Assembly (NCBI GenBank): GCA_946403315.1
Contig: CAMIZK010000008.1
Location: 1 to 39,959 of the forward strand
From: an uncultured Bacteroidales bacterium
GTDB lineage: Bacteria > Bacteroidota > Bacteroidia > Bacteroidales > Paludibacteraceae
DNA length: 39,959 nucleotides
Direction: 5' to 3'
Under the pieces are notes generated by a model. That model searched no databases. It saw nothing but the letters and a program-made list of their open reading frames with translations, and was not told where the DNA came from. Below are positions 2,763 to 38,607 of this stretch, piece by piece. The number at the start of each line of letters is the position of its first letter. Positions within the stretch are counted from its first letter, which is position 1. Position numbers and translations under genes: made by a program.

Positions 2763-2787
2763 GTATTATATACATAGTATATAATAC
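2763..2787. repeat. Perfect 11-bp inverted repeat, 3-nt spacer
   Basis: Arms GTATTATATAC and GTATATAATAC flank ATA. It lies in the 440-bp recQ/MFS intergenic region. A sequence-related inverted repeat lies at 19387-19407, and both sit next to 11-nt tandem arrays. There is no G/C-rich stem, so a terminator is unlikely; a protein-binding site or element terminus is possible. Confidence 0.8.
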
Positions 2788-2810
2788 CAATATGTTAAAG
2801 TGCAAAAAAT

Positions 2811-2865
2811 AGTGCGTGATAAGTGCGAGATAAGTGCGCCATAAGTACGTCATAAGTGCGTCACT
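2811..2865 (+). repeat. Five-unit 11-bp tandem array (AGTGCGNNATA)
   Basis: Units AGTGCGTGATA, AGTGCGAGATA, AGTGCGCCATA, AGTACGTCATA and AGTGCGTCACT are contiguous with an exact 11-nt period. A possible extra unit precedes them (AGTGCAAAAAAT). One helical turn per unit would put a bound protein on one DNA face. The rest of the 2627-3066 gap holds the two promoters, the inverted repeat and A/T tracts; I see no credible gene in it. Confidence 0.85.
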
Positions 2866-2975: not shown

Positions 2976-3007
2976 CTTGCACAATTCAAAAAAAAGCAGT
3001 AATTTTG
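2976..3007 (+). promoter_or_regulatory. Bacteroidetes-type promoter for the MFS-Sus operon
   Basis: The -33 CTTG is followed by 20 nt and the -7 box TAATTTTG. Transcription would begin about 3014, which favours the downstream ATG at 3067 for the transporter. Confidence 0.7.
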
Positions 3008-3066
3008 CGCCGATTTTTGTAATGTATATTTTACAAATCAGGCAACTTAATTATAAAATTGATATC

Positions 3067-4407
3067 ATGCAGAAACGGAATTTATCCTTTGCACAACTCT
3101 TTAATTTGAGTTTCGGCTTCTTCGGAGTGCAAATAGCATACGCCCTCCAAAGTGCCAACATTTCACGTATCTTTGCTACCTTGGGCGCTGACCCCCACAC
3201 GCTGAGTTTCTTCTGGATCCTCCCGCCGTTGATGGGTATGATCGTGCAGCCGCTCGTAGGTAAGTATTCGGATAAAACATGGACGCGTCTCGGCCGTCGT
3301 AAACCTTACCTGCTCGTCGGTGCCCTCATCGCTCTCGCGGTGATGATTCTCCTGCCGAATGCCGGTAACTTCAGTTTCGGCCAGTCCGTCTTCCTCGGCC
3401 TCAATGCCGCAATGTGGTTCGGCCTATTCAGCCTCATGTTCCTCGATACCTCCATCAACATTGCTATGCAGCCGTTTAAGATGATGGTAGGCGATATGGT
3501 CAACGAAGAGCAGAAGGGTACGGCTTATGCCATCCAGTCTGCCCTCTGTAACGCAGGCTCGGTAGTAGGTTATCTCCTCCCGATCTCCTTGACGTGGGTA
3601 GGTATCGCGAATACCGCTCCGCAAGGCGTCATCCCCGACACCGTCAAATGGTCCTTCTACCTCGGTGCAGCTATTCTCACCCTTTGTTCGCTCTATACCT
3701 TTATGACCGTCAAAGAGATGAATCCGGAGGAATATGCCGAGTTCCACGGCATCAAGGATAAGAAAGTGGACCCATCAGACGAAAAAGGCATTATCACCTT
3801 GCTCAAAGAAGCACCTTCTGCTTTCTGGACAGTGGGCCTCGTGCAGTTCTTCTGCTGGTCTGCCTTCCTTTATATGTGGAACTATTCGAATGGCGCCATT
3901 GCCGTGAACTGCTTTGGCTGGGATGGAGTAGATACCGAAGTGGCAGAGTTTCAAAATGCCGGAAACTGGGTTGGCGTAGTATTCTGCGTACAAGCAGTCG
4001 GTTCGCTCCTATGGGCGGCTTTCCTGCCTTGGCTCGAGAAACGTTTCCATAACAAGGGAGCGTATTCGATCTCGCTCGTCGTGGGTGCAATCGGTTTTAT
4101 TTCCACTTTCTTCGTAACGAACCAGTATGTGCTCTTCGGCAGTTATCTCCTCATCGGTGCCGCTTGGGCGGCAATGCTTGCCCTGCCGTTCACCATCGTT
4201 ACCAACGCTATCAAGGGCGGTAACATGGGATATTACCTCGGCTTGTTCAACTGTACCATCTGCCTGCCGCAGATCATTGCAGCACTCCTCGGCGGTGTAC
4301 TCCTTACTTATATATGCGGGGGCGCGCAGGCGGGTATGCTCATCGTTTCCGGTGTGCTCCTCCTCTGTGGTGCTGCATCTGTCTTTATCATTAAAGAGAA
4401 AGAATAA
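3067..4407 (+). CDS. MFS sugar transporter (SLC45/GPH-like disaccharide:cation symporter type)
   Basis: This is an inner-membrane transporter of 446 residues with about twelve hydrophobic segments. The N-terminal FGFFGVQIAYALQSANISRIF, PPLMGMIVQPLVGKYSDKTWTRLGRRKPY and the loop-2/3 basic motif are typical of sugar-proton symporters that accompany Sus-like loci in Bacteroidales. I start it at MQKRNLSFAQLFN (3067), not at the ORF-track start 2977, because the promoter -7 box lies at 3000-3007 and the earlier start would fall inside the promoter. Given the galactan locus around it, galactose or a short galactooligosaccharide is the likely substrate; this is inference, as the sequence does not set specificity. 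It is first in a five-gene plus-strand operon. Confidence 0.85.
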   Translation: MQKRNLSFAQLFNLSFGFFGVQIAYALQSANISRIFATLGADPHTLSFFWILPPLMGMIVQPLVGKYSDKTWTRLGRRKPYLLVGALIALAVMILLPNAGNFSFGQSVFLGLNAAMWFGLFSLMFLDTSINIAMQPFKMMVGDMVNEEQKGTAYAIQSALCNAGSVVGYLLPISLTWVGIANTAPQGVIPDTVKWSFYLGAAILTLCSLYTFMTVKEMNPEEYAEFHGIKDKKVDPSDEKGIITLLKEAPSAFWTVGLVQFFCWSAFLYMWNYSNGAIAVNCFGWDGVDTEVAEFQNAGNWVGVVFCVQAVGSLLWAAFLPWLEKRFHNKGAYSISLVVGAIGFISTFFVTNQYVLFGSYLLIGAAWAAMLALPFTIVTNAIKGGNMGYYLGLFNCTICLPQIIAALLGGVLLTYICGGAQAGMLIVSGVLLLCGAASVFIIKEKE

Positions 4408-11868: not shown

Positions 11869-11955
11869 CCGGACTATGACTGTCCGGTTGATTGTAGCCT
11901 TACGGAGGCTTGACGTTAGCCTTGACTGTCGGTTGACCGTCGGTTGACCGTCGGG
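11869..11955. repeat. Inverted repeat plus ~11-bp tandem array between convergent genes
   Basis: CCGGAC and GTCCGG form a perfect 6-bp inverted repeat (7-nt spacer, 11869-11887). TTGA-initiated units follow: two irregular ones of about 12 nt, then TTGACTGTCGG, TTGACCGTCGG, TTGACCGTCGG at exact 11-nt spacing (11922-11954). The array stops 3 bp before the GH2 stop codon. The architecture resembles the 2763-2865 and 19339-19407 sites, but the sequence differs. Confidence 0.7.
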
Positions 11956-11957
11956 TT

Positions 11958-14438
11958 TCATTGCATGAAGAATGCTCCATTGTGCCTTTTTTTGAGAATA
12001 AATGTGCATTGTCCGGCGAAGGCGTGCATCTGCGGCTCAACGAATGAATCCAAGCAGGCAGCGTCACCGTTAGCGGCAGCGACAAATCCGTCGCCTTCGT
12101 ACCGTATCAGGTTATTGGCCTTCGGACAAAGGTTACCGTCCTTATCCACCACCTTCACCGTCATATAGCATAGTTCCTCAGGATTTTCCTCTTCATTGGC
12201 CCAAATAACCTCCAAATGATCCGGCTCGCCTGCAGTCTTTACGCTCTCTCTTGCCATCTCTTTTCCCTTCTCGTCATACGCCACTACCGTAATTTCACCT
12301 GCTTCAAACGGCACATCGAACCACATCAGGCGGTAACGGGGTAATAACTCCGGTCTCGGCGCACTTCCCCATACCGGCGGTACAAAATCGCCTACTTTCG
12401 GCATCTGACTCACTCTCGCTTCCTGTGACTCGTAACCGTTAACCGGTAACCCTTTCGCCATTAATTCCGTTTCTTCCGTGGTCGCAAAACGCAGTTTACC
12501 GTAACTCTTGCCGTTCACAAACAATTCCGCATTCGGGTAACTTGTGTAGCAGAATACCGGCACTAAATCGCCCTCTTCCCAGTTCCAATGCGGTAACACA
12601 TGTAGCGTCGCGTCCTCTTTGTTCCATTGGCTTCGGTATAGATAATACCGATCCTTCGGCAGCGATGCCAAGTCAATAATTCCGAAATAACTGCTATGAC
12701 TTGGCCATGCGTCCGTATCGTACGGCGAAGGCTCTCCTAAATAGTCAAATCCCGTCCAAACAAACTGACCCAAGGTCCAGTTATAATCGTCCTGCAACTG
12801 AAAATCTTGTTCCGGCAGACCGGACCACGGACAATACTCCACGTCATATCCGCTACTCTGATAATCCTCATAAATCGCAAAATCCTTCAGCACAGCAGGG
12901 ATCTTATAAACGCCTCTACTGGATACCGTACTTGCTGTTTCGCTACCCAAAATCATCTTCTGCGGCAGATTCTCATACGCTTCTTCATATCTTCCGGTTC
13001 GATAATTGAAACCCGGTAATTCCACCGCCGCTCCAAATCCGTTATGAATCACATGCATCGCTTGGTCCATACCGTTCGTCACCGGTCGGGTGGGGTCTAA
13101 TTCATGGAATAGCGCTTGCAGTTTTGTCACGATCTCAATACCGTCCGGCAGCACCTGGTTCCATACCTCGTTACCGCTCGACCATAGCATCACGCACGCG
13201 TTGTTGCGATAGTGCTTCACCATATTCGTGATATCCCGTTTCCACCATTCGTTGAACTCTACGCTGTAGTCGTTCTCCGTCTTGCCGTGGTTCCAAACGT
13301 CAAACGGCTCGATCATCATCATCATTCCCATCTCGTCGCATAACTCCACCAACTCCGGTGCCGGCATGTTATGACTTGTGCGAATCGCATCGCAACCCAT
13401 ATTCTTCAGCATCGTGATCTGGTGACGTAACGCGTCCTTATGTACCGCCGCACCCAACGGTCCTAAGTCATGGTGATTGCATACGCCCTTGAATTTTCGG
13501 GTCTCGCCGTTCAACTCAAATCCCCTCTCTGCCGTATAAGAAATACTCCGGATACCAAATCGCGTCTCTTTCTTATCCAATATCTCTTTATCCCGCAGTA
13601 CACGCGTCCGCGCTATATACAGGTTCGGATCCTCAGGCGACCATAATTGCGGCTCTATTACCTCTGCTACGCCTTCCTGTCCTTCTATCGTTGCAACCAC
13701 CTTGCCATTATACAGTATATCAGTCTGAATGCTGATATCTGATGGCTGATGACTGATGGTTTCAACTCCATCCTGCACATCCACCTCGATCGTCACCTGC
13801 GCATACTCTTTGCTCACTTTGGGTGTCCGAACCAAAATGCCGAATGTCGGGATATGAATAGGATCCGTTTCTACCAAGTGCACATTCCGGTACAGTCCTG
13901 CACCCGGATACCAGCGGCTCTGCTGCGGTTTGTTCTCCAGGTACACATCAATATCCACGCTATCTGAATGCTGATGGCTGAATGCTGACGGCAGTATATA
14001 GCAGTCAAACGTGTTGTACCCGTACGGCCAATAAACCATTTCCTCGCCGTTCACATACACGTCCGCATGACTCATCGCGCCGTCAAAAACAAGCGTGTAG
14101 AACTTGTCTTTCTTTACTGCCACACGCGTCCGGTAATGACCCTTACCCATCCACGGCAGACCACCGCTTCGGCCTGTCTTCCACGTAGGCTCCTTCTCAC
14201 CGTTCTGAACAACAATCACTTCTTGCAGGTCATTTGCCCGGTCAAAAGGTCCGCTGATCGCCCAGTCGTGCGGAATAGTCACATCCTCCCATACGGGATT
14301 ATCCGTCGTGTCTTGAGTGAACTGCCACTCCCGCAACAACGTGTCCGTACGAACTGTTTCTTGCTTTGTCGAACAAGCACAAAATACCATGCTACTAATC
14401 AGCAGCATGGTAGAAATAATATTGAAATTACCTTTCAT
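11958..14438 (-). CDS. GH2-family beta-galactosidase, lipoprotein
   Basis: This glycoside hydrolase removes terminal beta-galactose from oligosaccharides. It has 826 residues; the signal ends VFCACS, with a lipobox cysteine, so it is periplasmic or surface-anchored. Domains in order: N-terminal sugar-binding jelly roll (DWAISGPFDRANDL), immunoglobulin-like domain, and a TIM barrel with RTSHNMPAPELVELCDEMG. The acid/base glutamate lies in VMLWSSGNEVWNQ (about residue 420) and the nucleophile in ILGSETASTVSSRG (about 499). C-terminal beta domains follow. Two loops (about 149-159 and 227-240: SAFSHQHSDS, ISHQPSDISIQTD) are encoded by 7-nt tandem repeats. It is third in the galK-galM-GH2 operon. 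Other GH2 activities remain possible, but galK and galM next to it favour galactose. Confidence 0.92.
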   Translation of the reverse strand: MKGNFNIISTMLLISSMVFCACSTKQETVRTDTLLREWQFTQDTTDNPVWEDVTIPHDWAISGPFDRANDLQEVIVVQNGEKEPTWKTGRSGGLPWMGKGHYRTRVAVKKDKFYTLVFDGAMSHADVYVNGEEMVYWPYGYNTFDCYILPSAFSHQHSDSVDIDVYLENKPQQSRWYPGAGLYRNVHLVETDPIHIPTFGILVRTPKVSKEYAQVTIEVDVQDGVETISHQPSDISIQTDILYNGKVVATIEGQEGVAEVIEPQLWSPEDPNLYIARTRVLRDKEILDKKETRFGIRSISYTAERGFELNGETRKFKGVCNHHDLGPLGAAVHKDALRHQITMLKNMGCDAIRTSHNMPAPELVELCDEMGMMMMIEPFDVWNHGKTENDYSVEFNEWWKRDITNMVKHYRNNACVMLWSSGNEVWNQVLPDGIEIVTKLQALFHELDPTRPVTNGMDQAMHVIHNGFGAAVELPGFNYRTGRYEEAYENLPQKMILGSETASTVSSRGVYKIPAVLKDFAIYEDYQSSGYDVEYCPWSGLPEQDFQLQDDYNWTLGQFVWTGFDYLGEPSPYDTDAWPSHSSYFGIIDLASLPKDRYYLYRSQWNKEDATLHVLPHWNWEEGDLVPVFCYTSYPNAELFVNGKSYGKLRFATTEETELMAKGLPVNGYESQEARVSQMPKVGDFVPPVWGSAPRPELLPRYRLMWFDVPFEAGEITVVAYDEKGKEMARESVKTAGEPDHLEVIWANEEENPEELCYMTVKVVDKDGNLCPKANNLIRYEGDGFVAAANGDAACLDSFVEPQMHAFAGQCTFILKKRHNGAFFMQ
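13718..13759. repeat. Heptanucleotide array inside the GH2 gene (first)
   Basis: Plus-strand units CTGAATG, CTGATAT, CTGATGG, CTGATGA, CTGATGG run with an exact 7-nt period. The coding (minus) strand reads through without stops and gives ISHQPSDISIQTD. Confidence 0.85.
13961..13992. repeat. Heptanucleotide array inside the GH2 gene (second)
   Basis: Units CTGAATG, CTGATGG, CTGAATG, CTGACGG at 7-nt spacing are the same family and orientation as the array 200 bp away. They encode SAFSHQHSDS on the minus strand. Confidence 0.85.
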
Positions 14439-14460
14439 TTTTCACTTTTCATTTTTCACT
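14433..14460 (-). repeat. Heptanucleotide array filling the galM-GH2 gap
   Basis: On the minus strand the galM TAA is followed directly by AGTGAAA, AATGAAA, AGTGAAA, AATGAAA. The GH2 start ATG lies in the last unit, so the whole 22-bp spacer is repeat. Confidence 0.9.
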
Positions 14461-15456
14461 TTACAGAAATCTATATTCGGTTATTTCGTCTAATTTTTCG
14501 CCCGGTCTCAATACGATATTCGGGAAATGGTCATGGTGAATACTGTCCGGCCATTGTTGCGCTTCCAGGCACACCGCATGCTTTTCGTCATACATCGTGC
14601 CGCTCTTACCTGCGTTGCGCTCGATGAAGTTACCCGTATACACCTGCAATCCCTTCATCGTCGTCCAGCATTCCATCGTCCGGCCGTCCGCCTCCAGTGT
14701 CGCCGCATGACGTAACGCTTTCGGTGCATCCGCTTCGCACAGACACCAGTTGTTGTCGATACCCTTCCAAGGCGTAAAGAACGGATCTTTCATGCGGTCA
14801 CCCAAACGGGTAGGCTGACGGAAATCCATCGGACTATCCACTACCGGCAGAATCTGACCCGTCGGACAGGTCCATTCGTCGAACGGCGTGTACCGGTCGG
14901 CATTCACCTGCAGCATATGGTCATCTACTCGACCGCTGTCTTCACCTGCCAAATTGAAATACGCATGGTTCGTCATGGCAACTAACGTCGGCTTGTCCGT
15001 CTTGGCCTCGTAATGGATCACCAGACGGTTGTCTTTCGTCGCTGTGTACGTCACCCATACATCTACATTGCCCGGATAACCTTCCTCGCCGTCTTTACTG
15101 CGGTAGTGCAGCGTGATTTCAAACAAACTCTGCGCCGTCACTTCCCATAACTTCGCGTTGAAACCTTCCAAACCGCCATGAAGACTGTTTGGCCCGTTGT
15201 TGACAGGAAGAGAGTAGGTGACTCCGTCCAATTCAAACGTTCCTCCACCGATTCGATTCGCTACGCGACCGCAGATCGCATTGAAATACGTCTCTTTCTC
15301 TTTCCATTCATCTGCCGTACGAAAACCCAACACGATGTCTTTCACTTCCCCTTTCCGGTTTGCTACCAACAGCTTCGTGATCTTCGCTCCCAGATTACTG
15401 ATCTCGACCTTCAGTCCTCCCGTGCTCTTTATGGTGTAGAATTGAACTGTTTTCAT
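14461..15456 (-). CDS. galM: Galactose mutarotase (aldose 1-epimerase)
   Basis: It interconverts alpha and beta anomers of galactose so that galactokinase can act. The 331-residue length is normal for a cytoplasmic GalM; no signal peptide is present. Family motifs: GRVANRIGGGTFELDG, NNGPNSLHGG, the catalytic-histidine stretch AMTNHAYFNLAG, GIDNNWCL and the late glutamate segment VCLEAQQWPDSIHH, where the catalytic base lies. The start MKTVQFYTIKSTGG is placed at the ATG that ends a 7-bp repeat array directly behind galK. Cotranscription with galK and GH2 is clear from gaps of 24 and 22 bp. Confidence 0.95.
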   Translation of the reverse strand: MKTVQFYTIKSTGGLKVEISNLGAKITKLLVANRKGEVKDIVLGFRTADEWKEKETYFNAICGRVANRIGGGTFELDGVTYSLPVNNGPNSLHGGLEGFNAKLWEVTAQSLFEITLHYRSKDGEEGYPGNVDVWVTYTATKDNRLVIHYEAKTDKPTLVAMTNHAYFNLAGEDSGRVDDHMLQVNADRYTPFDEWTCPTGQILPVVDSPMDFRQPTRLGDRMKDPFFTPWKGIDNNWCLCEADAPKALRHAATLEADGRTMECWTTMKGLQVYTGNFIERNAGKSGTMYDEKHAVCLEAQQWPDSIHHDHFPNIVLRPGEKLDEITEYRFL

Positions 15457-15483
15457 ACATCAAACATTATACATCATACATCA
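15454..15483 (-). repeat. Heptanucleotide array filling the galK-galM gap
   Basis: Minus-strand units ATGTATG, ATGTATA, ATGTTTG, ATGTATG run from the galK TGA to the galM ATG. The unit itself carries ATG and TGATG/TAATG stop-start overlaps in shifting frames. Confidence 0.9.
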
Positions 15484-18389: not shown

Positions 18390-19355
18390 TTTATTTTTCA
18401 TAATTATCCATATGATCACAGGCGCACCAAATAAGGCACTAACCGTCATAATCGGCAGCGGATGCACGAACAGCGAACAAATCACGTCGCATACCAGTAA
18501 CAGGCATGCACCGATCAGCGCACTCGCCGGTATCGTCACGCGGTGATTGGACGTCTTGAAGATCCCCCGCGCAATATGCGGCACCGCCACACCGATAAAC
18601 GCAATAGGACCGCAGAAAGCCGTGATACCTCCGGCCAACAGACCCGTCGCTAACACGATAAACAACCGCGTCCGACCGATATGAATACCCAAACCCCGTG
18701 CATAGTCTTCGCCTAACAACAATCCGTTCAGCGGTTTCAGACTCAGCAGCACAAACACCGTTCCTGCCATCAGGATAGGTACTAATAACTGCATATCCGT
18801 CCAACCGACACTGCTCAGCGAACCCATCGTCCACACAATAAACAGTTTCAACGCGTCCGGATTCGCGAACTGCTGCAGCAACGTCACCAACGCGCCCGCA
18901 ATAGCTCCGAACATGATACCCACGATCAGCAGACTCACGTTGCTCTTCACCCGCTTACTCACCGCCAGCACCAGCAACAGCACCAAGGTCGCACCGATAC
19001 ACGCCGCAATAGGAAGGCTGATGGCTGAAAGCTGAATGCTGAACGCTCCTAACATCGTTAGGAGAGCGACACCTAAACTCGCCCCTGAACTCACGCCCAA
19101 CGTATACGGCCCTGCCAACGGATTTCGGAATAAGGTCTGCATAATCAAACCGGTTACCGATAATCCGGCACCTGCCAAGATCGCTGTTACTGCCTTCGGC
19201 AGACGGATGTCATGTAAAATCCTTCCGTCTATCTCCGACATCGCTCCGAACGGCCATAACCATTCCGTACCGCCTTTGCATACGTCCAATATGAAAAGCA
19301 GCACCAATGCGATACCCAACGCACCAAATATAATCCCTGTTCGTGTACTATGCAT
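18387..19355 (-). CDS. FecCD/BtuC-family ABC transporter permease (iron-chelate or cobalamin)
   Basis: This inner-membrane permease subunit serves siderophore, heme or vitamin B12 import. It has 322 residues and about ten hydrophobic helices. Family motifs: RLPKAVTAILAGAGLSVTGLIMQTLFRNPLAGPYTLGVSSGASLG, then FIGVAVPHIARGIFKTSNHR near the coupling helix, and LPIMTVSALFGAPVIIWIIM at the end. No periplasmic-binding protein or ATPase gene is adjacent, so its partners are elsewhere. Residues about 104-113 (FSIQLSAISLP, near a predicted loop) are encoded by a 7-nt repeat array, and the start codon lies inside an 11-nt array. Substrate cannot be decided. Confidence 0.9.
   Translation of the reverse strand: MHSTRTGIIFGALGIALVLLFILDVCKGGTEWLWPFGAMSEIDGRILHDIRLPKAVTAILAGAGLSVTGLIMQTLFRNPLAGPYTLGVSSGASLGVALLTMLGAFSIQLSAISLPIAACIGATLVLLLVLAVSKRVKSNVSLLIVGIMFGAIAGALVTLLQQFANPDALKLFIVWTMGSLSSVGWTDMQLLVPILMAGTVFVLLSLKPLNGLLLGEDYARGLGIHIGRTRLFIVLATGLLAGGITAFCGPIAFIGVAVPHIARGIFKTSNHRVTIPASALIGACLLLVCDVICSLFVHPLPIMTVSALFGAPVIIWIIMKNK
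19016..19045. repeat. Heptanucleotide array inside the permease gene
   Basis: Plus-strand units CTGATGG, CTGAAAG, CTGAATG, CTGAACG at exact 7-nt spacing. Same family and orientation as the two arrays in the GH2 gene. Encodes FSIQLSAIS on the minus strand. Confidence 0.85.
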
Positions 19356-19382
19356 GTACTGGTTATGTACTATCCCGCACTA
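19339..19382 (-). repeat. 11-bp tandem array spanning the permease start codon
   Basis: Minus-strand units TAGTGCGGGAT, AGTACATAACC, AGTACATGCAT, AGTACACGAAC. The ATG of the permease is in the third unit, and its first residues (MHSTRT) are repeat-encoded. Units resemble the AGTGCGNNATA array at 2811-2865. Confidence 0.75.
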
Positions 19383-19386
19383 CCTT

Positions 19387-19407
19387 ATAATATACTATGT
19401 ATATTAT
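19387..19407. repeat. Perfect 9-bp inverted repeat, 3-nt spacer
   Basis: ATAATATAC, TAT, GTATATTAT. On the minus strand its core TATACATAGTATAT is identical to that of the inverted repeat at 2763-2787, and it lies 4 bp from an 11-nt array. It falls in the GH53-permease gap. Confidence 0.8.
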
Positions 19408-19422
19408 CCCGTGATTTTGGAT

Positions 19423-24595: not shown

Positions 24596-24630
24596 CTTTC
24601 GCCATTGGCCTTTCGCCATTCGCCATTAGT
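24596..24630. repeat. Heptanucleotide array at the 3' end of the giant gene
   Basis: Plus-strand units CTTTCGC, CATTGGC, CTTTCGC, CATTCGC, CATTAGT. It lies between the terminator and the stop codon of the giant gene and overlaps the stop. Sequence family is the same as the 417-444 array. Confidence 0.8.
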
Positions 24631-27600
24631 AAATCAGTATCTTATCCGTCTGGCTTTGTTCTCCGTACATCGTTCGGATGAAGTAGATGCCATTGACCTC
24701 AGGAAGGGTCAGTTGCATAATTCCTTCTTCCAACTCGCCGTTACCTATGAGCATACCGGTGAACGAGTAGATAGCGTATTGTCCGCCGTGCGGCGCATCT
24801 ACATTCACTATAGGCATCTGTCTCGGCGCATTATTCGGATATACCTGAATAGGATTGCTTACCGTCGGGTAATCAGCAAACGGCAGATCCGGTTTCTGAA
24901 TGGTAATAGGATGGGTAGGAATAAGTTCCTCGTTGATACCTTTGCGCTTAGCCCACATGGTAACCTTGTCATCCTCTGCGAGTTCTTTAGTGTACAAGTA
25001 GTCGTGTTGATATGTAACAATCGCTCCTTCACCGATCTGCCATCTGATATCATCGAACTCATAACCGCAGTTACAATAGGTACTCAGCGGCGCTACTACA
25101 TCGTCCCAGTTTTGCTCAATAATCCAACTTGGATATCGAATCTGGAACTCTAACGGATCGGACTGAATATCGTTACATCTGTTGTGAATCAGAAGTGTAA
25201 CAGTGTAGTTACCCGGTCGAACTCCGCACTGCTGCTCCGGATAGCATTGGCTAACATCTGAAGGCTGCGGAATATTCACTTGAGCCATACCCTTTCTGCG
25301 TATAGGATTATTGTAACTATTCTTGAATCCTACCTGTTTTGCCGCATTGTCAAAGAGCAGGTCGTATGTCATTTCGCCTATTTGATCAACGGTAAAGTTA
25401 ATATCAAATGTCAATGCTTTCTCCGGAATGTAACCGATCTTCTCTGTACTAATGGTTGTGATAGACGAAGCAACAGAGAGGTGTAGAACACCAATGGCAT
25501 ATACTTTGTCGTTCGAATCACGGATAGTATCCGTATAAACACCCGGTTGGGAGTAGAGCTTGTTGTTGAAACTCCATCTGAACTCCGGTTCGTTGTCACA
25601 CAAAGTATATTCTGTTGTATCCGGTGTTATCACAATCAGGTGCAACACACGCGTACTATCGCATTTTCCGATTTGCCATGAGCGCTCATAGTCACCGCTA
25701 TTGTAATACTTGCGGTTTTCCCATGTGTATGGCAACTCTTCCGGTAACAGTCTCACAGTCGTATCCATTCGGAATACCGGATAAACGGTGAGGTTCAATG
25801 TGACGATAGAGTCACAACCGTCAACGCTCTTTAGTTTGACACGGTGCTCTCCATTCTTGTAAAACTTCTCGCCTCCAAATTCGACGGTATCGCCTTCACA
25901 TATCGTTTTGGTGACTGCCGGCATCTCATACGTCGGCGCTTCATATACCTCAATTCGGTAGAGGCTATCCATACGGTTGGTTACGGTCGATCTACGTACA
26001 AAGGTGTAGTAACCCGCGGTCCGAATAGTATCTTTATCAATAATGAGTTGTGAACCCGTACACAACGGAATCTGGTTCCAATCTGAGTAGTGCGTCGTCA
26101 CTACAAACTCAAGCAGATTGATACTGTCGCATCCGTACTGATTGAGGTAGTTGTCTTCAATAATGGTCGTCGCTACATCCGGTATCCATTTCTGGGAAGT
26201 TTGATCCCACTGCGGCATGCCTATCTTCGTGTCATCGTAATACTTGCCGTTATGGATATACGGCACATCTTCGTCCGTGATCACAATACGTGTCTTGGTC
26301 ATCGAGATCGGATTAACGATCAGCGTCAGGTTAACGATGGTATCAAACGATGACTCAGCTCCGCCACTGACTACGGCTGAGTATTTACCGGTTTTCGTGA
26401 TGATTTGACCATAGAAGTTGTAACCGTTACCATCGTCACAGATATATTTCGTACGCTCTACGGTGATCGTACGTTTCGTGTTCACCGCAATCTGGAAGAT
26501 AGAGTCACAACCATAAGCAGTCTTCAAGGTGTCGCGATAGATGGTATCCAACTTGGTGATGTGAATACCGTGGATATACGTTCCTTCTTGATCCAACTCT
26601 TTAATCAGATGTTGCTCATACGTGTAGAACGACGGATGGTTCGTTACCACCAACTCATATATACTATCGAAACCATAAGTGGTCAGATATCGGTCGAAGT
26701 AATGCTTCTCCACATTATCACCGTAACGCGTGAGGTATGGGTTCACTTGTGCCTTACCTTCTGCGTAGATCTTTTGTCCGTGCCATTCGATGGTATCCGG
26801 TGCACAGAGATCCAGGTACTCGGTGAAGTGGTAAGACGGGTGTACCTCCAAGTGCAGGTGATGGATAACATCGCAGCCGTAGTCGGTTTTGCTAATACAT
26901 TCATAGTCTCCGGTCTTATCCAAGACACGCGGAACACCCGTTGTCGCATCCGGACAGAAGGTATAGGTATCCTGATCAGATATATATACGGTATCCCATT
27001 TCTCAAATATCGGCTGTACGCTGATAATATAACGCGTCACACGGTCGCATCCGTTCTCGGCCGGAACCGTGTCGTAGTACGAACAACTTTCTCGGATTGT
27101 GTCTCCGTTAATGATAAACGTGTTGCCGAAGCAAAGGTTGATGTTCTCTTCCACATACTCCGTCTCTCGTACGAACAAATGCAAGGTCGTTACTACCCGT
27201 GATGAATCCGTCCATGCGGTCGGTAATGCATAATCACCTGTTTCACTGTACTCGTAGCCGTGCCATACGAAGGGTAATTCATTACTGCATACATACGCCG
27301 TCGTATCAATCTTGAAGTCTTTCAGAACCGTCAAAATTAACTGATACGTATCCACACATCCATTGCTGTTCTGACTTGTATACGTATAGATACCCGATGT
27401 CATACAGGTGTCGCCGTGGAACATCACCGTATCGCCGGCAAAAATCGTTCTTGTCTCCGTCTGATGGTTTATCGGCTGTACCTGCAACGACAGCATCACA
27501 ATCGAATCACATCCGTTCACCGCCGTCAGTGTGTCGTAATACGTTCCCGACTCCGTCAACATCCGGTTGTCGAATTGATAGAAGTCACCCTCACAGATAG

Positions 27601-30600
27601 TCGCTACAATCGGCTCTTCCAGTCGGGACGTCGGCAGTACTGTCACTTTCAATCCGATAGTGCTCAACTTACCTTCCGTGTTCACTACCGAGTCTCGGTA
27701 GATGCCCGATTCATAAATCGTCTTGCCGCGCCATACTAACGGTAACTCATTCGCGCAAACCGATACGGAATCGTCAAACAAGCGGTTCACCGTCAGACGT
27801 AACTCAACGATACTGTCGCATCCGAACGATGAAGTGAACCGAACCGGATAGATACCCGCCGTAGAGTAGGGCACACCTTGGAACATCACCGTGTCGCCTT
27901 CGTAAATACTCCGCTCAATCGAGTGGTAGTATTTCTGCAGTACGTTCAGGTGTAAGATCACCACGCTGTCGCATCCGTTACCGTTCTTGATCGTGTCGCG
28001 GTATTCACCCGAGACACCCAAGAACCGGTTGTTGAAGTTATACAAATCGCCTTCACAAATCTCGCGGTAGATCGTCGTATCCGTCGGCTCGTTGACTACC
28101 AGCCGCAAACCGTAGAACATCCGTTCGCCGTTCACAAAACTCGTGTCGTTCCGATAGATACCGGAAGCGTATAACGGCGTCACTTTGCCGTTCCATTTGT
28201 TCACCCATAGATACGGAAGTTCTGTCTTACATACCGTCACCGTCGTATCCACTAACGGGTGAACAACGACTTGCAGTACTGATGTGCTGTCGCACTCTTC
28301 AGGTGTGCGCGCATAATGCGTGTACGTGCCCGAAGTATATAAGGTGTCACCATAGAAGTATATCGTGTCGCCTTCAAAGATATGCTCGGTACGTGTGCTG
28401 AAGTACGGTTTGTTGATGGTGAGGTGTAACTCAACGATGGAATCACAACCATCCTTCTTCTGTAAGGTATCGTGGTAGATTCCGGCCTCTGTCAGGTGTA
28501 GCCCATTAAAGAGGTACGAACTACCTTCACAAATAGCAGCGTGGTTGATTACGACAACCGGTTCATGAACGATGAGTTGCAATCCGTAGAACAATTGGCG
28601 TCCTTCTGCATCGTAGGTCGTATCGTTGCGATAGATACCTGCAGCATACAACGGAGTGATCTGTCCGTTCCATTTGTTCACCCATTGATACGGCAGATCG
28701 TTCGCGCAGACAACCACTGTAGTATCCACCATCGGGTGTACAACCACCTTAATGTCTGTGATACTGTCGCAGCCGTCCGGTGTGTAGCCCTTGATGGTAT
28801 GCAAGGTGTCCTTATCAAACGTGAGTCCCATTACAGAGGTTGACTGACCTTCGATAATATGACGCTCAATGTAGTTGTAGTACGGTTGATTAACGGTAAG
28901 GAATAGGGTAGTGGTGCTATCGCAACCGTTGCTTCCCTTCACTGTGTTCTCATAGATACCGGACTCCGTCAGGGCAATACCGTTGAATTGATACGAATCA
29001 GTACTGCAGATAGTAGCCCGGATGGTATCGTACTTCGCTTCATTGACAATGAGTTGAATGGTATAGAACGTGCGCTCTCCGTTAACATAACTGGTGTCAT
29101 TACGGTATATACCGGCATTGTACAACGGTTTAACTTCACCGGTCCACTTGTTCGTCCATATGTACGGCAGCTCACCATTACATACAATGACGGTGGTATC
29201 GATGGCCTTATGTACATTGAGGAACAGTTCGGCAATCGAGTCACATCCTTCTGCTGTCTGTCCGTAATGGCGATAGGTACCGGAGGTGGTGTACGTCTCG
29301 CCGAAGAACGTATAACTCTCCCCTTCGTAGATATCTACCGGAATACGTACGTAAATCGGTTTGTTCACCGTTAGGAACAGCGATACGATGGAGTCGCAGC
29401 CTGCGGTGGAACGAAGGGTATCTACATAAGTGCCTCCTTGGGAATAACGAACACCGTTGAACCAGTAATCCGATCCTTCACACATCGAGTGGCGAACGGT
29501 ATCGTGGTATACCGGCAGCACATGAACGTAGCGTATAAGCGTACTGTCATAACCATCCTGAGTCTGCAGGTATGCGGTGTACGAACCGGTCTCGTAGATG
29601 TCCTTCTTGTATATCTTCGTGCGGTCCTCGTTGTACCAAGTGTACGGCGTCTCGTTGTAACAGATGGAGACGGTGTCGTGGTACTGATAAGTAGCATGAA
29701 CACGCAGACTGAGGCTGTCGATGCTATCGCAACCGAATGCGCTCTCAAATACGAATCGGTATTCACCGGCCGCGTAGAGCGTATCGCTCTTGAACGTAGC
29801 TCCGCTCTTGCTCTTGTGCTCCCATACATACGGTGTATCCACATCCGCGATATCTACTTGACGATGCTTAAGGAACTTCGGATAGAAATTGAGGCTCAAC
29901 GTGATGATCGAGTCACAACCGTGGACAGTGGTCAGCGTATCGTTATAGAGTCCGGTGAGGGTGAGGAACCGCGGTTGACCGGATTTGGTCAGACCAAAGC
30001 GCAATGAGTCACCTTCACAGATCGTAGCGGTGATCGTATCATACTTAACAGGCATTACGCGTACGAAACGAACGCATGTACTGTCTGCCTCACCATCCGC
30101 AGTGCGGAAGTTCTGTATATATTCGCCCGTATGGTAGATATCGGTCTTACTGCCCCATGTGTACGGCGTCTCGCTCTGACATAGTTGTACCGTATCACGG
30201 TAGAGATAGTTCTGATGGAAGAACAAATGCAAACTATCAATACTGTCGCAACCGAACTTCGAGTAGTAGGTAAAGCTGTAGTCACCTGGTGCATGGAGCG
30301 TATCGCGTCTGATGATCGTACCGTTCTGAACGTGGGTCCATATATAGGGTGTATCTGCCGTCGAGATATGACGTGTCGAGTCGTTGATGTAACGCGGAAG
30401 AACATTGAGACGCAACTCGATGATAGAGTCACATCCGTTCTCCGTTCTTACCAGCGTATCCCGATAAACACCGCTCTGCTTCAGGAACCGCGGCTGGTGG
30501 GCACGGCTCAAACCGAACTGCAGCGAATCGCCGTAACATAAATTCTGATCCAGATACGTGATCGTCTGCGCTTTGTAGTTCACGAATAGTACATAGATAC

Positions 30601-33600
30601 TGTCTAACGGATAGTAGGTAATCAAGGTATCTGCATAGCTGATCGTGTCGTCTGCATTCGGAACCGTGAACGTCTGTTCATATCCCGTGTTCCAGAAATG
30701 CGTGTGGGTCGTCTCAATCGGCGCACAGACATCAATCGTATCACGGAATACATGCGTATAATGAACCGTGAAGTTCATCGTAACCACCGAGTCACAACCA
30801 AACCGATTCGGCATCGTGTATTCATAGTCTCCGTTTACCCATAACGAATCCACATGCGTCGTATCAGTGCCGTCCGCCTGTTTCCAGGTATGGGACCATA
30901 AGTATGGTATCTCACGGTCCGTCACCGTCGCTGTGAAATGCTTTGTCTGAACCGGCTCACGTACGTAGAGGTGTAGGATAATCACGCTGTCGCACATATT
31001 TGTGGCCGGTACCGTGTCAAAATACGTACCGGTGTTATGGAGCGTACGCGTCGTACGGGAACCGTCTTTATGATGCTCGTTCCAATACCGATATCCGTTA
31101 TTGCAGATCGTGTCGAACAAGTGCGTCTCATACTGCTGACGGTAGTAAACAACCAAATCATAGAAATGGTCGTAGAACCCATAGGACAAATGCTTTGTCG
31201 AATCAGTGAAGTGTAGCAGTGCCGAGTCTTGATCAGGTGTCTGGAATTTGATCGCAAAGTGTTCCTCCAGATCGTCATTGAACGTATACGTATACTCCCT
31301 ATTCGCTATATGGCATATCTCAATCGTGTCTTGGTAACTGTATGTTGGATCTACCGTCAGGTGCAGCGTATAGACCGCTTTGCAGAAATGGTGAGCCGAA
31401 TCCATGGCACTTACATAATCACCAATCGAGTCATACACACCCGTCGTACTCAGTACGCTGTCGTTAAATACATACGTCTCGCCTTGATGGATATGGGCGT
31501 ATAAATGCTCATGCAGCGTGTCTGCATAAACAACCGTCCATTTCGTGATACTGTCGCACTCGTAAGCACGGTCGTTGTGAATAACCGTGTTATGCTTCGT
31601 ATCCATCCATGCCGAGATCGTAGGAACTGTGTCGTAATAAACACCCGGTGCTTTGATCCACGTCGTGTCGTGCGGCCAGAATAACTGAACCGAATCGCCC
31701 TTACACAGCGCATACGTCTTTTCCGGAATAAGCGCCTGGTGAGGCCGTACGATGATATGGTGGAAATACGAACTGTCGCAGTTATACACAATCGTATCGT
31801 TCGTGTAATGGATACCCGTCCATTTGCCTTGCCATGTGCCGCTGTATCGGCCGTTCTCTCGGTGCTCGAACCACGGATCAGTCAGGTTACCTAATACCAC
31901 GTCACCGCCACTCGTCAGATAATCTTCACATACAAACGTCGAATCGTTTTTCGTCAATTCCGGAATGATACGTAAGGTCAGATAAACCGTCGAATCGCAT
32001 CCGCATGCCGTCTTGTCCGTGTGCGGATAACGAACCACCTCACTCCAGATCGTATCCGGATTCTGCCGGCCTAAGATATACGGTAAGGCTTGCTCGCAGA
32101 TCGTATCGACGATCTCAATCGTGTACGTCGTGTCCACTTGGATCTTCACCGTGTACAGCGTGTCGCAGGTCTGCAGCGTGTCGCGGAAGATCGTGTCGCT
32201 CAGATACGTCACGCCGTTCCAGGTCACGCCTTCCGGCTGACAACCGCGTAATACCTTCACCGTATCCACCGGAATCTGAACCGTCAGATCCAGTGAACGG
32301 TAATCCGTAATGAAATGTTCGGCGTCAAAGACCGTATCCGTGTATAAGCCTGTCGAGTAGTAGTTCTCTCCGTTGATACCCCATACATACGGCGTGTCCA
32401 ATGCGCAGATGCTGACTACGTCTTTGCGTTCTGCAATCACCCGTAACTGATAGATCATCTCGCATCCCGTTGCCGGATCGATCTCCGTCTCTTGCGTATA
32501 CGTCTTCGTCACCAGTTCCGTAATCGTCTCGCCGCGCCAGTCTATCGTCTCACCCTCATGCATGATTCGTGTCTCTACGATATGGCGCTGAGGCGTCTTC
32601 GTGATCTCATAATAAATGATACTGTCGCACTCGTTACCCGCAGAATGCTTGTAAGCCGTGTCGTGGAAGACCACACCTACCGGGTACAGCACCGGATCGA
32701 AATAGCTCTTCCCGTTGATAATCGTATCTTTGTTCTCGCAAATCTCAATCCGTTCCGTCCTTCTCGGTGCCTCTACAATCGTCAGGTTCACGCGATAGAT
32801 ACTGTCTGTACCAAACACACTCGTCAGATGATCCTCGTACTGCTTCATCTCACCGATCGTATGTTGCAGCGACAAACCGCGCCATACAAACGGTAATGAC
32901 GTCTCGCATACCGTCGTGTCTAATTCATACAGATATGTCGGACGAACAACCAGCGTCATCCGCTCTTCGTTCGTACATCCGCCTTCGGATGTAGTGAAGT
33001 GATGGTAGGTACCGGAAGTGGTGAGCACAGTGTCGGCGCGTAACGGATCAGGTAACTGATACGTCCATGTGTAAGGTAACTCCGTATCCACGATCGTGTC
33101 GCTCCGCTCAAGGAACGTAGCTGTGTTGAAATGCATATATACCTTCACAATCGAATCGCAACCATGAATCGTCTTGAGGTTCGAAATGACAGTTGTGTCC
33201 TCGTTATAAACCTTACCTTGGTAGTAAATAGCAGCTCCCTCGCTACAGGTGTACATATGGCGTACGATGGTATCTTTATAACTCGGGTTGATGCTGATAT
33301 TGAGCACGAAGATAGAGTCCACTTTTGTGTGACCATCGGTCCAAACAGTATCGATGTGTGTTCCTTCAAGCCATATTTGTTTACCACGCCATTCTACAGT
33401 GTCACCCTTACATAACGACCAGTTGTCCGTGTATTGATTCACTTGTGGCGAGGCGGGAATGATGTTTACGGTCAAACGGTAGATACTGTCGCAACCGTAG
33501 ATAGTCTTGTAACTGTCGTAATACACACCATCGGTTCCGATAGGCTGACCATGCCACATATAAATCTCGCCTTGAGGCAGATCGTGCGATTCGTCGAAGA

Positions 33601-36600
33601 TATATGCGTTGACTTTGTCGAGGTTGATCGTAACAATCGAGTCACAACCGTTCGCAGCGGTGAAGGTGTCTACCACTTGCGTAGAACTCGTATATAGTTG
33701 TCCTTTGTATGTCGTTTCTCCACAGAAAGTGATCGTGCGGTAGGTATGTTCTACCGGATTAACTGTCAAGTGCAAAGTATAAGTACTGTCCTTGCCATTG
33801 CGCGTCTGGTATGTATGCGTATAATCGGTGGTCTCTCCTACATGCTGATTGCTCCAACCGGCATGGCCGTGCCATACAAATGGCTCGCCTTGGCATACGG
33901 TTGCCCATTCTTCGAAATGATATTCCTCTTCGTCTTTGCTCAGGATAAGTCGCCAAATCTCGCTACATCCGGTCTCGGCATTCGGACTCTCAAACTCATA
34001 AGTGCCTACTGCATTGAAGTTTTCCGTCTTCTGAACACCGTTATCCCAGTAGGTCCAAGTGTATCCGTGTTCACCACCTAACGTGCCGCGAGTCTCATAA
34101 ACGCGTTGCGGATGTTTGTTGATATGAACGCGAATCAACGTGTCGCAGGTTAGGTAGTTGTCGTAATGACCGGCCTCTGTATAGGTCACCCCATTGAACG
34201 TAACTTGCTCATCATCGCAGATAGTGAACGTTGTGTCTATCTGTTGTAACTCAAGTACGGTTAGATGCAGACGATAGTAGTTGTAACTGCCGTCCGCTTG
34301 TTGTTCGCTCGAGTAGTAGTCGCCTGACTGGCTGGCAGAGATACCGTGCCAGTTCAACGTCGTGCTCGGACAGATGGTAGCGATCGAATCGATGGTATCT
34401 ACTTTGTTTACCGTCAACTCCAGTACGGCTACGCTGTCACATCCGAAGCGGTTCGTGCCGTAGTAGAAATAAGTGCCGGTACCATGGTATACATTCCCAT
34501 TCCAGGTATAACTCTCGCCGTCGTTCATGCGGTGAACAAACTTATTCGTATCCACGCTCAGTACATTGAGCGACAGATGAACCGTGGAGTCGCATGTGGT
34601 ATGGAAGGTATAGGTATAGTTGCCGCTCTCCGTTAACATACGATCACCAAAGGTGTAACTGCTTCCGTTACAAATCGTTTGGGTGATATAGGTGTCCGGA
34701 ATATAACGAACGATGAGGTTCAGTATATGTTCGATACTGTCTTGACCTTGACTACCTGTCTCTATCTCCGTGTAACGGCTGGCTGCAGAATACGTGTTAC
34801 CGCGCCAGACAAAGGTCTCGCCCGGACATATGACCTCAGTCACCTCGTCACGAATAACTTCCCAATCTACAGAAAGCGTTAAGATGCTGTCGCAACCTTG
34901 AGTGGATGCATAGCGGATATCAATGGTCTCCGGACCATTGAAGGTGTGATTGCGGTAGTTAGCCGGGAAATGAGTGAATGTGATACGCTCTGACCAGCGG
35001 TAAACAGGGTTCACCGTCAGGTTCAAGACATAGAGCGAATCCACTTCGTACGTGTTACCTACATAAACGGTATCTACATAGGTTCCGGTATTGAAATAGT
35101 CTTTTCCGCGCCATGTGTACGTATCTCCTTCACAGATCATCTCGTTCCATGTCCGGATATTCATCTGAGGAGCGGCCTCTTCCATTCCTACACCTATGGT
35201 GTAGATACTGTCACAACCGTTGACGGAGGTGTAAGCGTCTTTGTATAAGCCTGAGTTGATAATAGCCTGACCGCGCCAGTACAGCGTCTCGCCCGGCACA
35301 ATCGTAGCCGTGTCATGACGGTGGAACGCATTGCCTTTTAGCAGCACTGTCGTCACAATCGAATCACAACCGTACAAAGTCTTTAAGGTATCTACTATCG
35401 TAGTCGTAGTAGTGTAGTTCTTGCCGCTCAATGTGTACGACTCGCAGAATGGAATCGTCTCTGTGCTTCGCTTAAGCGGGTTCACCGTCAGGTTCAACTG
35501 GTAGATACTGTCTTTGCCCGAACGGGTGGTGTAGGTATCGTAGTAGATACTGGTTGCGCCAATTCCCTGATGGTTCAAGCCACTCTGACCACGCCAGCTG
35601 AATTCTTCGTTCTCGCAGATCGTGATATCTTCTACAAAATGATACTCCGTCTCGTTCTTCGTCAGTATCAAGCGCCATAATTCGCTACAACCGGTGGTCG
35701 TATTCGGACTCTCGAATTCATACGTACCCGGTTGGTTAAACGTCTCGGTCTTTTCTACACCGTTATCCCAGTAGGTCCAGGTATATCCGTGGCTGTTGCC
35801 GAGGCTGGCAGTGGTGGCATATACCTGCTGAGGATGTTTGGTGATGATTACTTCCATCAAGGTGTCGCAACTAAGGTAGTCAAAGAAACGACCCGACTCG
35901 CTGTACGTCTTACCGTTGAACGTGATGTTCTGATCATCGCAGATGGTGAACGTCGTGTCAATACGTACCAGTTCACGTACCGTCAGGTGTAAACGGTAGA
36001 AGTTATAACTGCCATTCTCCTGACGCTCACCGGCAGTATACTGACCGGTTTGACTCGCTACGATACCATGCCAGCGGAACGGAATCTCATTCGGACAGAT
36101 AACAACCGTTGTGTCGATCGTATCTACATGATTGATAGTCAGTTCTAACACGTTGATGCTGTCGCATCCAAAGCGGTTAATCTGTCGGTCATAGTATGTG
36201 CCTGCTTCCCAATACGTATCGCCGTTCCATACATAACTATCACCCTTATTCATATGGTGAACGAACGTGTTCGTATCGGCTTTCAGTACGTTTAGAGACA
36301 GCACTACAACCGAGTCACATCCCTCTTCACGGAAGGTGTAACGATAAACGCCTTTCTCTGTAAGTACCTGATCTGCAAATGTATAAGAGCTACCTTCGCA
36401 GATGTTCTTCGTGATGCGCGTCTCCGGGATATAGCGAACAGATAGATTCAGAATATGCTCTACGCTGTCTTTGCCGTCCGCTCCTTTCTCTGTCTCTACA
36501 TAGCGATAGGCCTCTTTATATTCATGACCGCGCCAGGTATACGTCTCGCCAGGGCAGATGGTGGCAGAGATCTCATCACGGATCACTTCACGGTCCACAT

Positions 36601-38560: not shown

Positions 38561-38607
38561 ATCCAATTTCCAATATCCAATTTCTAATAGCCATTCGCCA
38601 TTCGCCC
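38561..38607 (-). repeat. Heptanucleotide array filling the barrel-giant gene gap
   Basis: From the barrel stop the minus strand reads GGGCGAA, TGGCGAA, TGGCTAT, TAGAAAT, TGGATAT, TGGAAAT, TGGAT, then the ATG of the giant gene. The unit sequence drifts from GGCGAA to GGAAAT type while keeping the 7-nt phase. Confidence 0.92.

Follow-up and report, generated by a model that had tools for sequence, protein, structure and literature searches.

Short elements, usually composed of a palindrome and a tandem array of 11-nt units, are dispersed between genes in one genus of rumen bacteria. One of them lies at positions 2763-2865 of the window, the 39,959-nt stretch of Bacteroidales (Paludibacteraceae) DNA analyzed here. 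The best reading of this site as a whole, in which we place about even confidence, is that a dispersed two-part element is present here in a copy that lacks the gene, and that its array would be the cognate site of a small protein. The putative partner belongs to an orphan family of about 145 aa which, judged by sequence comparison, appears to be restricted to the genus and to be described here for the first time. The window contains the following features.

2763..2787, plus strand (site 1): type-A palindrome GTATTATATAC-ATA-GTATATAATAC, an inverted repeat with 11-nt arms and a 3-nt centre, 100% complementary
2788..2810, plus strand (site 1): type-A spacer CAATATGTTAAAGTGCAAAAAAT from palindrome to array, 23-25 nt being typical of type A
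2811..2865, plus strand (site 1): type-A array of five 11-nt units AGTGCGNNATA, a gene-less "solo" copy
11922..11954, plus strand: third 11-nt array, three units of TTGACCGTCGG without a palindrome, of the wider 11-nt array class
19339..19386, minus strand (site 2): type-B 3' part and 11-nt units (GTGCGGGATAGTACATAACCAGTACATGCATAGTACACG)
19387..19407, minus strand (site 2): type-B palindrome ATAATATAC-ATA-GTATATTAT, an inverted repeat with 9-nt arms
19408..19420, minus strand (site 2): type-B 5' box CCAAAATCACGGG (consensus TTCAAAATCACGGG)

The perfect inverted repeat and the five units that the preliminary description had reported at site 1 were confirmed, with the correction that the last unit is degenerate. 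The units are, in order, AGTGCGTGATA, AGTGCGAGATA, AGTGCGCCATA, AGTACGTCATA and AGTGCGTCACT; four of the five start with AGTGCG and one with AGTACG. TRF placed the array at 2811-2863 (period 11, 4.8 copies, score 71), and its lag-11 score of 19/22 was reached in 0 of 2000 dinucleotide shuffles. The inverted repeat and four units described for site 2 (19387-19407, minus strand) were also borne out, except that the first step is 10 nt and not 11; the other steps are 11 nt. These units (AGTGCGGGAT, AGTACATAACC, AGTACATGCAT and AGTACACGAAC) have a lag-11 score of 15/22, likewise reached in 0 of 2000 dinucleotide shuffles, and the predicted start codon of a FecCD permease gene (19355) falls within the type-B 3' part and units (19339..19386). 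With two mismatches allowed, the window contains exactly two matches to the palindrome core, both of them exact. The array at 11922-11954 follows a terminator-like hairpin between convergent genes; G035 and G022 have the TTGACCGTCGG unit at the orthologous position too, and G026, G002, G027 and G018 have other units there. Tandem repeats of period 7 were seen in the window at 422-444, 14433-14462, 15453-15483 and 24598-24627. A single open frame of 4646 aa, probably encoding a giant surface or secreted protein, covers 24626-38566 on the minus strand.

We examined the distribution of the core in draft MAGs. The 14-mer TATACATAGTATAT occurs exactly seven times in the window's genome (a 1.5-Mb draft, 73.6% complete) and its reversed-pattern control not at all. 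When near copies are included the number rises to 13, two of which (L014 and L015) do not resemble elements. Thus the further copies on which the preliminary description had made its reading depend were found in this genome, and also throughout the genus. The core was present in 28 of 61 relatives, with many copies in most genomes of the same genus, 0-2 in genomes of other families and only the background level outside the genus; among the sampled genomes of the genus, about two thirds contain it repeatedly. A 23-mer from the type-A palindrome gave more than 117 matches in GTDB genomes, nearly all of them Paludibacteraceae/Bacteroidales rumen MAGs, and none in viral contigs, and the type-B stretch 19371-19421 gave more than 100 matches in the genus. 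Only 7 of 169 cores lie inside ORFs of at least 150 aa, although such ORFs make up 61% of the DNA. Sampling of random 20-kb blocks gave about two intergenic 11-nt arrays per 100 kb for the genus, as against none in 289 kb of other families. Tandem-repeat periods of 7, 8 and 9 are over-represented in the genus, those of 10 and 12 are not, and period 11 exceeds both 10 and 12. Period-7 repeats are commoner than period-11 repeats genus-wide. An Rfam scan of a 1-kb stretch returned chance-level matches only, none of them on the element.

Members of the class consist of a palindrome, a spacer and then 4-7 units of 11 nt. An 11-nt array follows the palindrome in 83 of 110 aligned copies, and control lags of 8, 9, 10, 12 and 13 give 2-10. 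The core TATAC-NNN-GTATA is shared among the 110 copies; arms and arrays differ, and four types were distinguished.

Type A: arms GTATTATATAC, units AGTGCGNNATA; includes site 1
Type B: box AAAATCACGGG, arms ATAATATAC or ATATATAC, then GGTGGGATACGATAT and locus-specific units; includes site 2
Type C: arms TATATATAC, units TATCCTATGGG, the third unit consistently divergent
Type D: palindrome as in type A, units CTTANNNATTC

Sites 1 and 2 are therefore not the "two related copies" of the preliminary description but representatives of subtypes A and B of a genus-wide class. The AGTRC likeness noted in the site 2 units is present, yet it is atypical of type B, in which units vary by locus. The palindrome is flanked by CAG/CGG/CTG in type A, AAAAAG in type C and CACGGG in type B. 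Read relative to the array, the central triplet of type A is either ATA or TAT, and in type-A copies such as L067-L183 positions -2/+2 pair A..C or G..T; by their sequence, these centre and -2/+2 variants look as though an inversion of the palindrome at its own site had produced them. In three hybrids (L246, L247 and L257) a C-type palindrome is followed by an A-type array, the switch falling close to the palindrome, and so modules have been exchanged between subtypes. In L273 (G002) about 65 nt of unrelated sequence splits a type-C array. At L384:7507-7656, in a genome that lacks the palindrome core, an 11-nt array reaches the unusual length of about 13 units (TATCTATCGTA).

Site 1 lies between RecQ (443-2626) and an MFS gene (2977-4407). 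Orthologues of the window genes, with their surroundings, were compared in 20 blocks, 18 of which were readable upstream of the MFS gene. This interval is a hot spot: 12 of the 18 readable species blocks carry an 11-nt array, and its type and orientation differ. Type A was found in G000, G034 and G027. G002, G004, G006, G018 and G036 have type C, in forward or reverse orientation, and G030, G022 and G026 have no array. At the less than base-exact resolution that these distant species allow, no target-site duplication was observed. Because the element is missing from some orthologous intervals and others contain a different subtype, in one orientation or the other, copies evidently come and go. 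The empty sites in relatives that had been called for were thus obtained, and together with the dispersed copies, the fixed order of parts and the 11-nt period they uphold the claim of a real composite element.

A protein family of about 145 aa was enriched among clustered ORFs near the elements, and its gene immediately follows type-A arrays and points the same way. Close homologues number one per genome, and 1-9 when distant paralogs are counted. No match to the family was found in Pfam, NCBIfam, PHROGs or PDB, nor in plasmids or phages, and it was not found in other genera (393 genomes of the order and 395 of the phylum). Eight residues are invariant in the alignment (G15, R26, K28, E44, R51, P57, E62 and R103), no catalytic motif is recognizable, and a dN/dS of 0.07-0.14 indicates purifying selection. 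A possible likeness to DUF6266 has no backing from a Pfam match. Literature searches found no description of a protein-plus-array system of this kind. The gene occurs in at least four neighborhoods across species (neighbors named by eye except RecQ/MFS), and therefore the gene-bearing unit has also changed place.

The association of the family with 11-nt arrays is nearly universal. An upstream array, defined by a lag-11 score of at least 16/22 within 400 nt upstream of the gene, was present in 83 of 86 non-redundant members; by the same criterion control lags gave 0-8 of 86. Such a lag-11 array preceded 93 of 600 unrelated ORFs at these array-enriched loci. The ORF control is conservative because its loci were selected for arrays. 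One of the three members without an array is truncated by a contig end. Most gene-linked arrays have no palindrome, many are in genomes without the core, and the arrays of most paralogs have no known dispersed copies. The gene-linked consensus unit is GT[GT]AT[TA][AC][GT][TC][GA]N, with GTKATTA as its conserved part, and unit and protein subfamily vary together. In 57 of 83 cases the gene strand carries a TAnnTTTGC promoter box upstream of the array; one case has the box on the other strand, and in none does it fall between array and ATG. The unit is on the strand opposite the gene in 17 of 83 cases, by subfamily, and a DNA site is therefore favored over an RNA site. Neither type B, to which site 2 belongs, nor type C yielded a partner gene.

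The units of site 1 match the leader array of a family gene on another contig of the same genome (C1:49675-50103). The gene of this subfamily, subfamily A, was found in 10 of 41 genus genomes, always as one close gene per genome. All 10 of these genomes hold type-A arrays, compared to 5 of the 31 without the gene (hypergeometric about 3e-6); for arrays beyond the gene-linked one the figures are 6 of 10 and 5 of 31 (about 0.013). Up to about 26 gene-less type-A copies occur per genome, and G027 has about 26 type-A arrays with one close gene. The gene was not found in G034 and G031 (drafts 97% and 84% complete) despite several type-A arrays. In a comparison by local alignment and permutation, solo arrays matched the gene-linked array of their own genome better than solos of other genomes did (0 of 5000 permutations), a difference for part of which species relatedness may account. 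Two solos in the window's genome carry the unusual TTTGTGCGCG unit of the gene's leader. A search for decayed genes after solo arrays showed nothing at 72 of 91 elements and one weak match, and the idea that solos are remnants of recent gene loss was rejected in the absence of gene remnants behind them. The promoter box was found upstream of type-A elements on the same strand in 21 and on the opposite strand in 21 of 91. As both strands are equally frequent, a promoter as a fixed part of the solo element was rejected.

We propose a mechanism in which each part carries its own degree of confidence. The order in the home copy would be promoter, palindrome (in subfamily A only), array and gene, and from this order we consider autorepression most likely, the protein binding the DNA of its own leader. 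With an 11-bp step, successive sites are one helical turn apart and share a face of the DNA. Binding would accordingly occupy one helix face with one subunit per turn, and that the putative protein binds its array seems to us likely. The palindrome, with arms of 9-12 bp and a 3-nt centre and recurring with different arrays, could form a hairpin or cruciform and would most likely be the place where DNA is nicked or exchanged; some nuclease or replication step would act there. Such processing of the palindrome is suggested tentatively. The gene-less palindrome-plus-array copies would be non-autonomous dispersed elements, spreading in trans to intergenic sites with the array-bound cognate protein as the address. 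A need for the protein in the spreading of solo copies is a serious possibility to which we give somewhat less than even weight. In its general form the proposal is that a genus-restricted family of orphan proteins, in which every member binds DNA and evolves together with an 11-bp array of its own, drives the dispersal of gene-less elements independently of known transposases, with the array as address and the shared AT-rich palindrome as processing site, and in this form we give it distinctly less than even weight. The preliminary description had posed a protein-binding array and a small mobile element as alternatives. Both find support and are probably true together, not opposed; that interpretation as a whole is partly supported.

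Several other explanations have to be weighed. The solos might be operators by which autoregulated repressors control other genes, and would then be kept by selection and not by selfish spread. One leader array per paralog, units that follow the protein subfamily, and the recurrence of arrays at an orthologous intergenic site (the MFS upstream region, in 12 of 18 blocks) agree with such a transcription-factor regulon. However, type and orientation differ among species at that one site, type-B copies are found inside operons in either orientation, arrays also lie between convergent genes (11922), and an operator would not need a conserved palindrome common to unrelated arrays, so that we regard a regulon as unlikely. 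It is quite unlikely that the element is an ordinary MITE of some transposase and that the small gene is a passenger captured with one subtype. The copies are indeed multicopy and intergenic, with modular ends and orthologous sites that lack the element, but no pair of inverted repeats bounds them: the palindrome lies inside one end, and no inverted copy of it was found at the far end in the aligned copies. A passenger, moreover, would not show linkage to an array in 83 of 86 cases over very divergent paralogs, including those in genomes without the core.

The position of the array between promoter and ATG in most gene-linked cases (box upstream in 57 of 83, downstream in none) would suit control at the RNA level, the array being an RNA-binding platform in the 5' leader (TRAP-like) and the solos transcribed leaders or sponges. 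The same unit class on the opposite strand in 17 of 83, the equal strand counts of the box at type-A elements (21 vs. 21 of 91) and the lack of an Rfam match speak against it and make it very unlikely in our judgment. That the arrays are functionless minisatellites made by slippage (periods 7, 8, 9 and 11) we scarcely credit. Periods 7, 8 and 9 are over-represented in the genus as well, but period 11 stands above 10 and 12 and is absent from the 289 kb of other families, and slippage does not lead one to expect a near-universal link to a gene family, a conserved GTKATTA or unit-specific differences retained from copy to copy, such as that of the third unit in type C.

The dispersed two-part element that we favor was compared with known systems. 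REPIN-RAYT systems combine dispersed intergenic palindromic repeats with a cognate gene, and the repeats are commoner in genomes that carry the gene (PMC8049555). The elements described here share these three properties, and the corresponding layout was found, with one close subfamily-A gene per genome and dispersed gene-less type-A arrays. They differ in that the protein has no Pfam match and is unrelated to Y1_Tnp (RAYT being a Y1 TnpA-REP, PF01797), in that no GTAG/GGAG tetranucleotide stands 5' of the palindrome, and in that the repeat is an 11-nt array beside an AT-rich palindrome, with many paralogs each having its own unit. Y1_Tnp scored above the cut-off in 12 of 41 genus genomes; it was present without the core in G008, G009 and G019, and none was found in the element-rich G000, G002, G006, G015, G031 and G034. 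A RAYT as mobilizer was rejected because Y1_Tnp does not track the elements. The BrickBuilt MITE of Porphyromonas gingivalis is an intergenic multicopy element with a minisatellite, a leader and a tail (PMC4596501). Both are intergenic multicopy elements of Bacteroidales that contain a minisatellite; BrickBuilt differs in its 23-nt unit and small inverted-repeat ends, and the abstract reports no cognate gene family for it.

The double-strand origin of pMV158 (bind, nic) also has a hairpin and tandem 11-bp direct repeats, with RepB bound on one side of the DNA (PMC9943647). That plasmid origin is served by an HUH initiator and its repeats lie 84 bp from the nick site, whereas the copies described here are chromosomal and dispersed, their arrays begin 23-25 nt from the palindrome, and the protein has no Rep similarity: it gave no Pfam Rep match and no plasmid or phage match. 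A phage origin was rejected, as the palindrome is absent from viral contigs and neither phages nor plasmids gave a match to the protein. ParR/parC of R1 comprises a small DNA-binding protein and 11-bp tandem direct repeats upstream of the operon, with cognate recognition specific to the family (PMC9426499). The likeness extends to a small putative DNA-binding protein, tandem 11-bp repeats upstream and a cognate unit that differs by family. The present system differs in its many dispersed chromosomal copies and in a protein without an RHH match in Pfam, and no ParM homolog was noticed beside the gene in a general view of its neighbors. We set the system apart as new on the membership tests that failed for REPIN-RAYT, MITEs, plasmid origins and Rfam families, and on the lack of a match in the libraries searched, its logic being convergent with that of REPIN-RAYT.

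A protein family paired with an array of fixed period and variable sequence offers some dozens of natural pairs from which a recognition code may be read. If the protein also moves or maintains the copies, this would be a bacterial repeat-dispersal system that rests on no known transposase family. It makes testable the question of why bacterial genomes retain populations of short dispersed repeats.
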